DNA of 64,000 nucleotides from positions 1-64,000 of the forward strand of contig NZ_JARVWW010000038.1 of the NCBI RefSeq assembly GCF_029846715.1, given 5' to 3'. Numbering within the stretch: the first letter of the stretch is position 1; each line of letters starts with the position of its first letter. The DNA comes from Bradyrhizobium nivariense (GTDB lineage: Bacteria; Pseudomonadota; Alphaproteobacteria; Rhizobiales; Xanthobacteraceae). The notes beneath the pieces are model-generated. The model did no database searches and was not told the DNA's origin. It worked only from the letters and a program-made list of their open reading frames with translations. Shown piece after piece: positions 41,328 through 47,115 of the stretch. Made by a program: the position numbers and the translations under genes.

Positions 41328-42266
41328 ATGACGCTTGCGATCCTCTGCTCGGGACAAGGCGGCCAGCATCGGGACATGTTCGCTCTCACGGGCGACGCGC
41401 CGGAAGCCGCGCAGCTGTTTGCGCATGCGACGACATTGCTCGGTGGCAGGGATCCGCGCGATTTCGTCCGCGGCGAACCTGATGAGGCCCTGCACCGCAA
41501 CCGTGCCGGCCAGATTCTCTGTACCTTGCAGCCGCTCGCTGCGGCGTGTGCGCTCGCAGATGTCATTCCGCGCAGCGTCATCATCGCCGGCTACAGTGTC
41601 GGCGAGGTCGCGGCCTGGGGTGTCGGCGGCTTGTTCGATGCGACCGCCACGCTCGATCTCGTGGCGCGCCGCGCAGAGGCCATGGATGCGGCCACGCGCG
41701 CCGGCGACGGGCTGATTTTTGTCCGCGGTCCTTCCCGGGACGAGGTCGGTCGCCTTTGCGAACGTCACGGCACGGCGATCGCCATCGTCAATCCCGGCGA
41801 TGCCTTTGTCATCGGCGGCGGCCGTGAGGCGCTCAGCAGGATTGCCGAAGACGCGCGGGCGATGCACGCCGCAAGGATCGTCACGCTGCCGATTGAGGTT
41901 GCTTCCCACACCAAACGGCTTGCCGCGGCGTCTGCCGTGTTTCGTGAGACCTTGCGCCAGGCATCGGCGATATTCCCGCCGAAAGCCGGTGTGCGTATTC
42001 TAAGCGGGATAGATGCCGCTCCGGTCGTCTCGGCCGAGACCGGCCTCGACAAGCTTGCCGCGCAGATCTCGCACGCCGTGCAATGGGCAGATTGTCTGCA
42101 AGCCTGTGTCGAAGCGGGCGCAACGGGGTTTCTCGAACTCGGGCCGGGGCACGCGCTGAGCGGAATGGCTGCGGAAATCGCCCCCCGACTCCCGGCGCGC
42201 TCGCTGGATGATTTCAGGAGTCTTCAGGGTGTCCGCGCCTGGATTGCGCGTCACCTCGGCGCCTAG
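41328..42266 (+). CDS. mdcH: Malonate decarboxylase malonyl-CoA:ACP transacylase (epsilon subunit)
   Basis: A 312-residue acyltransferase of FabD type. The nucleophile is Ser90 in IIAGYSVGEVAAWG (GxSxG). The N-terminal CSGQGGQHRDMF and C-terminal FLELGPGHALSGM fit the family. It loads the first malonyl group from malonyl-CoA onto the carrier to start the cycle. It is the last gene of the operon; no MdcR-type LysR regulator follows. Confidence 0.9.
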   Translation: MTLAILCSGQGGQHRDMFALTGDAPEAAQLFAHATTLLGGRDPRDFVRGEPDEALHRNRAGQILCTLQPLAAACALADVIPRSVIIAGYSVGEVAAWGVGGLFDATATLDLVARRAEAMDAATRAGDGLIFVRGPSRDEVGRLCERHGTAIAIVNPGDAFVIGGGREALSRIAEDARAMHAARIVTLPIEVASHTKRLAAASAVFRETLRQASAIFPPKAGVRILSGIDAAPVVSAETGLDKLAAQISHAVQWADCLQACVEAGATGFLELGPGHALSGMAAEIAPRLPARSLDDFRSLQGVRAWIARHLGA

Positions 42267-42314
42267 CGCCGGCTGGTCCGAACAGAGGCTGCCGTCGATC
42301 ACGCCGCACTGTCG

Positions 42315-42410
42315 AAAAAAGGGGCCGTCCTTGGGGAGGACGGCCCCTAGATGCTCGTATGCCCAGGGAGGAGAGAGGCTCGAGCGGTGACTTGGGGGGT
42401 CTCGGTCACC
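42315..42410 (-). ncRNA. Probable trans-acting small RNA with C-rich loops (alpha-r14-like)
   Basis: Read on the minus strand, three hairpins follow one another. First, GGTGAC/GTCACC (42405-42410 with 42386-42391) has a loop with six C residues. Second, GCTCG/CGAGC (42381-42385 with 42353-42357) has a large loop with CCTCTCTCCTCCCTGGG. Third, a perfect 10-bp stem (42338-42347 with 42321-42330) has loop TCCCCAA and then T6 at 42320-42315, a textbook rho-independent terminator. Pyrimidine loops complementary to Shine-Dalgarno sequences are the hallmark of the alphaproteobacterial alpha-r14 family. The family assignment is inference; the hairpins and terminator are visible. The 5' end is not fixed. 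Confidence 0.62.
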
Positions 42411-42757
42411 TAACACGCACAGCATCGCCGATCGCGTAACCAAAGTATTTCACGAACCCCTTCTGTTTCTCATTTCGCATGGTTCGCGAGAAATCCGCGG
42501 GCAGCACGTGAGCCACGTCTTCGATGTCGAAGCCGGATCAACCGCGCGCCGGCCGCTTGCATATCGGTGAGCATTGCTCGTCCCGTCTCTTGGATTCTGC
42601 TGCCGTCGTGACGGCGGCAGAATGCAAATGGTCCATGCTCGAACGATAGGTGCGATCTCACCCCAAGGCTCGTTAAGGATGCTTAACCGGTACTAGATTT
42701 TGCAGATGCGAGGGGTTCCGGTCGCACGTCCGGTTGGGATGAGGGCCGTCTTGCGGA

Positions 42758-43135
42758 CTACGGCGCGTGGCCTGAAAGCGCCCTTTCGAGCCAGCGAATG
42801 ATCTCGTCACCGCTGGAGGGCTTTCCGAGATAGCACTGCGCGCCTGCGGCCATCACGCGCTGGCGCACGGTTTCGCTTGGAAACGCCGTCATGAAGATGA
42901 TCGGGAAATGGCGGCCGGAGGCAATCAGCCGGGCCTGCAGCTCGTCACCGGTGATGACGGGCATCTGGACGTCGGCGATCATGCATGCCGGATCGTCTCC
43001 CGGCGCCCGCAGCAGAAAATCCAGGCCGGATTCGTAGGCCTGGGCCTCGTAGCCGACCGAACGCACGAGGCTCGCAAGCGAGGTGCGAACGCCTTCGTCG
43101 TCGTCCACGATCGCAATCACCGGGGTTTTGGCCAT
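42758..43135 (-). CDS. Single-domain response regulator
   Basis: A 125-residue receiver with no output domain. The acidic pocket is D11/D12/D13, the phospho-acceptor D55 in CMIADVQMP, and a conserved Lys lies in YLGKPSSGDE. It resembles FixJ/NodW receivers without the HTH. It may act as a phosphate sink or protein-protein switch. It lies about 100 bases downstream of the FixJ-like regulator at 43238, in the same orientation, completing a kinase, regulator, receiver array. Confidence 0.82.
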   Translation of the reverse strand: MAKTPVIAIVDDDEGVRTSLASLVRSVGYEAQAYESGLDFLLRAPGDDPACMIADVQMPVITGDELQARLIASGRHFPIIFMTAFPSETVRQRVMAAGAQCYLGKPSSGDEIIRWLERALSGHAP

Positions 43136-43237
43136 GAGCGCACAATCCTGACCGCGGTGTTCCGCAAGGAGGATATCTCCCTTTGCACGGCCGATGACGC
43201 CTTATATGCACCCGGTGCCGTCCCGCCGGAATTATAC

Positions 43238-43909
43238 TCAGGTGTGGTCCGTAGTCCTTCGGGGCTGGGAAACCCCGAGCGCCTCGGCCTTGCGGACAAG
43301 GTCGGCCAGCGACCGGACCTCCATCTTGCGCATGACGTTGCCGCGGTGGATCTTGACCGTGATCTCGCTGAGGCCGATCAGGGCCGCGACCTGCTTGTTC
43401 ATCAGGCCGGCGGTGACATGGCCCATCACCTCGCGCTCGCGCGCCGTCAGAGTCTCGTATTGGGCGCGGATATCCTCCTTGGTCGCGGCTTCGGCACGGT
43501 CCTGCGCGTCGCGCTCGAGTGCCGCCGTGACCGCATCGAGCATGTCCTGGTCGCGAAACGGCTTGGCGAGGAAATCGACCGCGCCGGCCTTCATGGCACG
43601 CACCGACATCGGAATGTCGCCATGACCGGTCATGAAGATGATGGGATGTCTGATGCCCTGCCGGATGAGCTGGCCCTGCAAATCGAGCCCGCTCACGCCG
43701 GGAAGGCGGACGTCCAGCACGATGCAGCCTGGGCGGTCCGGCAGTGCGCCGCCGAGCAGTTCGGCGGGCGAGGCGAACAGACGCGTCTCGAGGCCGACGG
43801 ATCGGAACAGGCTGTCGAGCGAGGCGCGGATCCCGGCGTCGTCATCAACGATGATGACAACCGAGTTGAGGGATTGGGCAGGCGGCTGCATTTGGTCTGG
43901 TCGTGTCAT
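43238..43909 (-). CDS. FixJ/NodW-family response regulator
   Basis: A 223-residue regulator. The receiver domain has D22/D23/D24, phospho-acceptor D66 in GCIVLDVRLPG and Lys in FLAKPFRD. The LuxR-type HTH has LTAREREVMGHVTAGLMNKQ followed by VAALIGLSEITVKIHRGNVM. It overlaps the upstream kinase gene by four bases (ATGA), so kinase and regulator are translationally coupled. Such pairs in Bradyrhizobium include FixLJ and NodVW/NwsAB; the target here is unknown. Confidence 0.86.
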   Translation of the reverse strand: MTRPDQMQPPAQSLNSVVIIVDDDAGIRASLDSLFRSVGLETRLFASPAELLGGALPDRPGCIVLDVRLPGVSGLDLQGQLIRQGIRHPIIFMTGHGDIPMSVRAMKAGAVDFLAKPFRDQDMLDAVTAALERDAQDRAEAATKEDIRAQYETLTAREREVMGHVTAGLMNKQVAALIGLSEITVKIHRGNVMRKMEVRSLADLVRKAEALGVSQPRRTTDHT

Positions 43910-45821: not shown

Positions 45822-46260
45822 TGGCAGTCGCTCTTCTCATACCAGCGGCGTTGATGCCGCGATTTGATCGCGTTCACAACATCCCGCGGCGTGATTTTCG
45901 TGCTCTCGTGGAAGACCTGCGCGCCACGCAATCCGGCGAAAGTGCCGGCAGACGGCATTCCCGGGAGAAACCGGCCGGCTCGTGTGGTTCCATCGGCGAA
46001 TCTGTGCAAAGCGCGTCAACTTACCGCAGGCACCGCACGCCGCGATTCGCGTCCGCGATGCCGGTGAGCACAGCACCGTCGCGCTTACCCGGCGAACATG
46101 CCGCGATCATACCTAGGTATGACACGGTTAACCCGAGAACCTATCGATGCACCCGCGCGTAGAATGGATCGCGCGGACCGCCGAACTACTCTGCTCCCAT
46201 GACATTCGGACAAGCCGGTCAGGCGATGCCGGATCGAAAACGGGACAAGGAGATTCGACG
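45822..46260. other. Intergenic region between divergent regulators
   Basis: About 440 bases lie between the kinase (minus) and the AraC gene (plus). It holds a 16-bp perfect palindrome at 46107-46122. A 63-codon minus-strand frame (45818-46009) ends overlapping the kinase start, but has no ribosome site or recognisable family, so it is not called. Confidence 0.4.
46107..46122. promoter_or_regulatory. 16-bp perfect palindrome, candidate operator
   Basis: TCATACCTAGGTATGA is fully self-complementary. It lies 139 bases upstream of the AraC-family gene and about 285 bases upstream of the divergent kinase operon. Dyads of this size suit a dimeric HTH regulator such as a LuxR-type response regulator. 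Confidence 0.45.
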
Positions 46261-47115
46261 ATGTCGCTGCAGATGTCACGCTCACAGACAATCAAGGATC
46301 ATGACGTTCGCGCGATCGATATCTCGGAAATCGATCGCGATCGGCTCGGGCTGTCGAAACTTCCTGACCGCTTCGGCGAAGACGGAACGATGTTATCCTT
46401 CGTCCATCTGGACGTCGCCCTGGCAGTCGAGACGCGTGCGGCAGACGTCGAGCGATCTGCCGCTCGCGGACCAGGCTTCAGGGTCTCCGCAAAACTCCTT
46501 GCGGGATCGCCTGCCGACAGCGAGCGGGCGTTTACAGCAGGAGAATTCACCGATCCGGTCATGCGGCGCCTGTCGGATGCGCTCGCGGCGACAGAAGCCG
46601 CGCACGATGTCCATTCGGGGATCATGGCCGACGCCCTGCGGCTTGCGATCCTCACCCGGACGTTCAGTCGGCAAGCGTCCGGCGCACCGGCCGCACTCGA
46701 CCCGGCCGATGGCGTTCACGAGGAAGGAGCCTGCCGGACCGTGCGGTCGCTGCAGACCTGGCGCCTCAAGCGCGTTCTGGAATATGTCGACAAGAATCTG
46801 GCCGCCAAGATCACGCTTCAGGACATGGCCGCGGTCGCCGGCCTGAGCCGGATGCATTTCGCCGCACAGTTCCGCGCAGCCGTCGGTGACCGGCCTCACG
46901 AATATCTGCTGAGGCGCCGCATCGAGCGCGCCCAGGAGCTGCTCAAGCAGGCCGAAGTCACTCTGGTCGATATTGCCCTGACCGTGGGCTTCCAGACCCA
47001 GGCGCATTTCACCACGGTGTTCAAGCGCTTTGTCGGCGATACGCCGTATCAATGGCGGAGCGCCTATCTCGCGCAATTCATGCCGCTGCCGCGCGCAAAG
47101 GCAGGCCCGTCATGA
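46261..47115 (+). CDS. AraC-family transcriptional regulator
   Basis: A 284-residue protein. The C-terminal domain (about 190-275) has both AraC helix-turn-helix motifs: LQDMAAVAGLSRMHFAAQFR and LVDIALTVGFQTQAHFTTVF, then GDTPYQWR. The N-terminal 180 residues resemble no sensor domain I can name. ATG 46261 is supported by CAAGGAG; an upstream in-frame ATG at 46147 has no such site. It lies divergent from the two-component array across a palindrome. Confidence 0.83.
   Translation: MSLQMSRSQTIKDHDVRAIDISEIDRDRLGLSKLPDRFGEDGTMLSFVHLDVALAVETRAADVERSAARGPGFRVSAKLLAGSPADSERAFTAGEFTDPVMRRLSDALAATEAAHDVHSGIMADALRLAILTRTFSRQASGAPAALDPADGVHEEGACRTVRSLQTWRLKRVLEYVDKNLAAKITLQDMAAVAGLSRMHFAAQFRAAVGDRPHEYLLRRRIERAQELLKQAEVTLVDIALTVGFQTQAHFTTVFKRFVGDTPYQWRSAYLAQFMPLPRAKAGPS

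Follow-up and report, generated by a model that had tools for sequence, protein, structure and literature searches.

A conserved predicted RNA with an anti-Shine-Dalgarno-type loop, linked to AraC-family regulator genes in Bradyrhizobium

A 64,000-nucleotide stretch of DNA from Bradyrhizobium nivariense (hereafter the window) carries on its minus strand, at 42315-42410, three predicted hairpins, the last of them a terminator. The element is conserved in Bradyrhizobium (soil bacteria related to the soybean symbionts), has an invariant loop core and is linked to araC, and both here and elsewhere the RNA also stands without araC. We read it as a Bradyrhizobium-specific, trans-acting anti-Shine-Dalgarno RNA of araC origin, cuckoo-like in kind, and give this reading a probability of roughly 0.55. 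The RNA would have started out either at the 3′ end of the mRNA of an AraC-family regulator or as a gene in direct association with araC, and may be a small regulatory RNA of perhaps 95-180 nt that ends at its own terminator. Its transcription could start in a retained promoter region of araC or at a promoter within the conserved block that precedes the hairpins, or could be run-on from the upstream gene. The exposed CCUCCC loop of hairpin 2 would then pair with the Shine-Dalgarno sequences of target mRNAs and block ribosome binding, in the manner of NfeR1 of Sinorhizobium, which is described as a silencer of ribosome binding sites (PMC10746234).

The element in the window

Reading along the minus strand, hairpin 1 (42386-42410) has a 6 bp stem and a 13-base loop containing CCCCCC. 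Hairpin 2 (42353-42385) has a stem of 5 bp + 4 bp and an anti-Shine-Dalgarno-like loop, CUCUCCUCCCU, at 42365-42375. The intrinsic terminator (42315-42348) consists of a 12 bp stem at 42348-42320, a CCCCA loop and then six T ending at 42315. It is strand-specific, its plus-strand side having no T run, and the second CCUCCCC of the element lies partly inside its stem. Three hairpins and a terminator with six T had been proposed here in the initial annotation, and the minus-strand fold and the coordinates bear this out; of the C-rich loop strings given there, CCCCCC of hairpin 1 holds, whereas those for loops 2 and 3 extend into the stems.

Over 42300-42430 (131 bases) the predicted folding energy is -58.7 kcal/mol, whereas 200 dinucleotide shuffles average -44.95 (sd 4.17; z -3.3); a single shuffle folds as well. 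On both strands of 42200-43300 the sole terminator-like site is that at 42315-42348. Since shuffles of the same region average 1.0 terminator-like sites, however, the terminator alone is unremarkable. A T5 run with CTCCTCCC in the preceding 100 bases occurs, within the window, only at this element. Upstream, the nearest intact gene encodes a response regulator receiver protein (42758-43135, minus strand; Pfam PF00072, E 1.7e-20) and lies outside the RNA family; the 348 bases that separate the two agree with the spacing reported earlier. On the other side, the last gene of the malonate operon (an open reading frame at 41328-42266, plus strand), presumably an mdcH and named so here, is convergent with the RNA.

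Spread and conservation of the RNA family

A DNA search of 265 Bradyrhizobium genomes gave matches in 79, others of which begin only at hairpin 2, while some cover nearly the full query at 79-93% identity; given the latter, the element is not a product of chance. A covariance model, R1, was built from 46 near-full-length copies and the structure as seen in the window. These copies came from the 50 first-line-like loci fetched (L001, L009-L037, L039-L058), leaving out L028 and L034, which the search word missed, L039, which has a longer hairpin 1, and L055, which has no block. At E <= 0.01, and with stricter filters that lose weak matches, R1 found 117 places in 92 of the 265 genomes. Fifty of these scored at least 75 bits (first line), 54 scored 35-75 bits (mostly second line) and 13 were weaker, most of the last being doubtful. 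Family members are recognised by three features, all present in the window element: a hairpin 2 with a CCUCCC loop, a terminator, and an AraC-family gene, or what is left of one, upstream.

The family comprises two paralogous lines, each normally behind an AraC-family regulator gene. Hairpin 1 of the second line has another stem and another loop, and is unformed in several copies; the form of hairpin 2 and of the terminator is kept in most copies despite this different hairpin 1 sequence. The genome of the window holds both lines, at 127.7 bits (the window copy) and 49.9 bits (second line), although the window copy, like the other rows from which R1 was built, matches the model by construction.

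In a 296-genome family sample, which includes genus members, 48 genomes match R1 at E <= 0.01, and the only one from outside the genus above 34 bits is G337 (105.1 bits), which is probably Bradyrhizobium sp. LHD-71. A scan of named genomes with the hairpin 2 pattern returned 64 stretches, 53 of them titled Bradyrhizobium; the remaining 11 reached at most 10.4 bits with R1 and were taken as chance. A closer inspection of the weak family-sample matches L166-L172 revealed that L166-L169 represent a different C-rich element with another gene upstream. In these four loci (L166, L167, L168 and L169, from other genera), a C-rich element of two hairpins and a terminator at about 1501-1620 (29-34 bits with R1) directly follows a gene whose product contains the stretch GDCEDYVLLKRRML and is taken to be transglutaminase-like. 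This element may be another C-rich 3′ RNA that is unrelated to the present family.

The loop of hairpin 2 has an invariant core in the alignment of both lines: CCTCCC is found in 68 of 68 copies, TCCTCCC in 64 and CTCCTCCC in 54. The exact motif CCUCCUCCC occurs in 25 of these 68 family elements and is absent from the window element, which has one CTCCTCCC. The invariant loop is taken as the functional part.

Covariation in relatives had been set beforehand as a test of the RNA. In the 46 near-full-length copies, pairing is kept in 97.5% of the cells of the structure supplied, and 10 cells carry double changes, neither value being reached in any of 500 shuffles; four pairs are changed on both sides (reached in 4/500) and 13 further pair types occur (reached in 91/500). 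Three of the four double-change pairs belong to hairpin 1, i.e. three of its six pairs, whereas hairpin 2 and the terminator barely vary. Hairpin 1 favours an RNA, and the stem of hairpin 2, being nearly invariant, yields little covariation and is hardly informative. The joint alignment of both lines (68 of 70 copies) has three double-change pairs, a number reached in 167/500 shuffles, and its covariation score of 0.078 for the true structure compares with 0.087 and 0.096 for controls slid by +2 and +3. Taken as a whole, a conserved structured RNA with an unpaired loop of the anti-Shine-Dalgarno type and an intrinsic terminator is supported, as first suggested.

Before the hairpins lies a conserved block (42409-42480, minus strand), with ATGCGAAATGAGAAAC .. 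GTGAAATACTT .. GATCGGCGATG in consensus. Mean pairwise identity among the 46 copies is 0.768 in its 76-base segment and 0.798 in the hairpins, compared with 0.561 in the 90 bases preceding the block (an average that includes araC-less loci) and 0.378 in the 45 bases that follow the element. The block might serve as a promoter or operator, or might be the 5′ part of the RNA. RNA structure was not found in it: its alifold energy is -1.41, and 100 column shuffles average -0.87 (sd 1.04). No sigma-70-type promoter was recognised, promoters of other types being sought by eye only.

Linkage to AraC-family genes and its loss

In most copies a gene for an AraC-family regulator is found upstream of the RNA; the protein at L012 has the Pfam domains HTH_18 and HTH_AraC. 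In L012 and L020 about 78 bases separate the stop codon of araC from hairpin 1, a distance that varies in the second line. The same 265 genomes were searched for araC at E <= 1e-60, and an RNA was counted where an R1 match lay no more than 500 bases downstream on the same strand. This was the case for 82 of the 127 araC hits. All 39 araC with at least 74% identity to the query have the RNA (38 of the first line and one, in G260, of the second), whereas among the 82 at 66-73% identity 43 have it and 39 do not. As the line is here defined by identity, a first-line araC below 74% would escape this count. One such case is perhaps G170, whose araC (71% identity) has neither an RNA nor an mdcH relative and is first-line-like at its C-terminal end. 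Of the 39 RNA-less places at 66-73% identity, 20 were searched again with filters off, and none exceeded 6 bits. The frequent absence of the RNA behind second-line araC indicates that it is dispensable there. At L192, from 182 onward, a second-line araC is trailed by no more than a remnant of hairpin 1 and the first part of hairpin 2; this is an RNA in decay.

First-line RNAs also occur without araC, in 12 of 50 cases. Eight of these loci keep at least 60 bases of the araC 3′ end, evidence that araC was lost there, and four keep 17-28 bases. The break points differ among the 12 loci, yet all fall before the block and none within it. In a tree built from the mdcH DNA of 36 of the 51 loci (seven without araC), the araC state changes at least five times (4-5 under bootstrap), three changes being forced by well supported branches. 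The losses are hardly clustered, since shuffled labels give 6.6 changes against 5; as all loci were drawn by RNA presence, the frequency of joint araC and RNA loss is not readable from this tree.

The window itself contains an araC remnant that was absent from the initial annotation. On the minus strand, 42465-42539 corresponds to the araC 3′ end (about 18 codons, running into the block) at 89% DNA identity to 1099-1174 of the L020 araC region, and 42538-42716 corresponds to the araC 5′ flank and first 12 codons at 88% DNA identity to 8-187 of the same region. The start codon of the relic lies at 42574-42572 and the first 37 coding bases of araC are kept, so that the relic spans 42465-42574, with its 5′ flank reaching 42716. 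In the alignment to the L020 araC region about 911 bases are missing between the two parts. The araC of the window is a relic; the RNA and the preceding conserved block are intact. Within the retained 5′ flank, just before the relic start codon, there is a near-perfect inverted repeat (ATTCTGC.GCCGTC / GACGGC.GCAGAAT, 42594-42623), which by eye is weaker in several other genomes.

The nearest araC relative in the same genome is 65% identical, lies on another contig and carries its own RNA copy. An AraC-type gene is also present on the plus strand of the window at 46147-47115, with 60% identity to the lost araC across 111 residues; the R1 search of this genome found no RNA copy behind it.

Losses in the two lines appear to be linked. 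Among the 50 genomes with a first-line RNA, a second araC is present in all 12 that are without the first araC and in 24 of the 38 that have it (Fisher p 0.012). Moreover, the second RNA is missing from 9 of these 12 genomes, compared with 7 of the 24 having both first and second araC (p 0.014); both p values are too small because the genomes are related. The linked losses of first araC and second RNA hint that functions may have parted after duplication. Many genomes, however, have a second-line araC without an RNA of either line, so the linked losses are no rule. Pairing of the RNA with the ribosome site of araC itself was looked for by eye in 13 upstream regions, and no extended complementarity was seen.

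Relation to known RNAs and competing explanations

In other alphaproteobacteria, RNAs with anti-Shine-Dalgarno loops are described as controlling nitrogen, transport and stress genes (PMC10746234, PMC10253847). The alpha-r14 RNAs among them are given as three hairpins, each with an identical CCUCCUCCC, and a promoter motif CTTAGAC-N17-CTATAT (PMC10746234). The CCUCCUCCC motif is also reported from other rhizobial RNAs, and CcsR RNAs are coupled to a DUF1127 gene (PMC3927594, PMC10253847). The present family resembles these CcsR or cuckoo RNAs (RF02791; CIN1 loci) in the position of a putative small RNA at the 3′ end of a protein gene, and perhaps in its loop, which keeps the CCUCCC core throughout and the exact CCUCCUCCC in 25 of 68 copies. 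It differs from them in that the coupled gene is an AraC-type regulator rather than a small DUF1127 protein and that there is one RNA instead of four. The best CcsR match in the own genome, among 150 of 6243 candidates scored, was the second-line copy at 21.4 bits (cut-off 65.3), and RF02791 had no match at the place of the window element at E <= 5. A DUF1127 partner of the CcsR type is likewise absent, the upstream neighbours being the araC relic and then the response regulator. The C-rich loop and GC-rich terminator are shared with mmgR (suhB, RF00519) and anti-hemB (RF02837), both of which match the same place; at 22.2 bits each, they fall below their cut-offs of 41 and 49.5, and membership in either was rejected.

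We take the 9,105,828-base genome G027 to be that of B. japonicum USDA 110. The small RNAs BjsR1-BjsR10 of this strain are described as mostly Bradyrhizobium-specific, several with imperfect copies (PMC5082802), and in being a putative small RNA of Bradyrhizobium with imperfect copies the present family is like them. None of the 5′ ends listed for them lies near the two family places in G027. Among the matches listed in a literature search by title and the start of the abstract, no araC-linked anti-Shine-Dalgarno RNA in Bradyrhizobium was found. Because the family shares one such loop, nearly complete, and the place behind a protein gene, and fails the ar14, CcsR1, mmgR and anti-hemB cut-offs, it is best regarded as a separate variant of the anti-Shine-Dalgarno kind.

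The alternative that carries most weight, although we consider it unlikely, is that the element serves the araC mRNA alone, as its 3′ untranslated region and terminator, stabilising the message and stopping transcription with no action in trans. Such a role would fit the position of both RNA lines behind araC. It might even accommodate the 12 araC-less loci, in all of which the recognised upstream gene is co-oriented and 6 to 814 bases away, so that run-on transcription of the RNA is possible and could suffice. However, the RNA and the block persist in those loci after araC has gone from them, the invariant CCUCCC loop is kept more strictly than a terminator requires, and second-line araC persists without the RNA. 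It seems improbable that the RNA instead works through its neighbour, with malonate operon transcripts that run past mdcH serving as its sponge or as a cis-acting antisense switch. It is true that 49 bases separate the end of the convergent mdcH-like gene from the terminator, that the plus strand of 42200-43300 yielded no intrinsic terminator for the malonate operon, and that malonate read-through would be antisense to the RNA; by tblastn, an mdcH relative is convergently downstream in 38 of 51 first-line-like loci. Nevertheless, no mdcH relative was found in the fetched flank of the other 13, L046 has a different gene in this position, and the second-line loci L068, L071 and L062 have other neighbours yet the same RNA architecture.

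Two further explanations fare considerably worse. The block contains an open frame of 24-25 codons (24 in the window) starting ATGCGAAATGAGAAA, and could in principle code for a peptide of 24-25 residues (MRNEK..), the hairpins then forming the 3′ untranslated region of this small gene. With a search word that permitted any first letter, 47 of the 48 translated copies have the frame with an ATG start, and it usually ends after 24-25 codons at the foot of hairpin 1. Yet it stops after codon 5 in six copies (L014, L019, L022, L023, L025, L030) and after codon 14 in L017, is shifted in two of the 48 (L026, L057) and runs past the usual stop in three (L048, L053, L060). There is no excess of change at third positions (0.186, 0.251 and 0.195 at positions 1, 2 and 3), and two of the block peptides gave no Pfam match. 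A peptide gene is thus very improbable and the open frame is probably not a gene. Membership of the alpha-r14/NfeR1 family proper, to which the initial annotation had tentatively likened the element, is scarcely credible. The two have in common three hairpins ending in a terminator, C-rich loops and an alphaproteobacterial host, and ar14 (RF02344) gives the highest bit score of the small RNA families that match. That score is 25.1 bits (E 0.27 in 14 kb) against a gathering score of 58.8, and of six relatives scanned with Rfam only L012 has an ar14 match (25.6 bits). Where alpha-r14 has three motifs, there is one near-complete motif here: CUCCUCCC is found only in hairpin 2, the CCUCCCC of the terminator is partly paired and hairpin 1 has only a C run. 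The promoter context also differs, and the element is tied to araC; with up to three mismatches the alpha-r14 promoter has nine matches in the window (4.74 expected), and none between 41973 and 52519. In the own genome no candidate exceeded the ar14 cut-off among 150 of 382 scored.

We retain a trans-acting anti-Shine-Dalgarno RNA of araC origin as the favoured reading. As to its history, we would tentatively suggest, at less than even odds, an ancestral araC with such an RNA in its 3′ end, a pair that was duplicated and whose functions then parted, several genomes now having one AraC that lacks the RNA and one RNA that lacks the AraC. In the window the 5′ flank of araC remains joined to the RNA, so the former promoter of the regulator may by now drive the RNA alone. 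With no ar14 or CcsR1 over the cut-off among the candidates scored in its own genome, the family may play in Bradyrhizobium the part that anti-Shine-Dalgarno RNAs have in other alphaproteobacteria. Loci that have repeatedly kept the RNA but not the protein offer a natural series on how stand-alone small RNA genes arise from mRNA 3′ ends.
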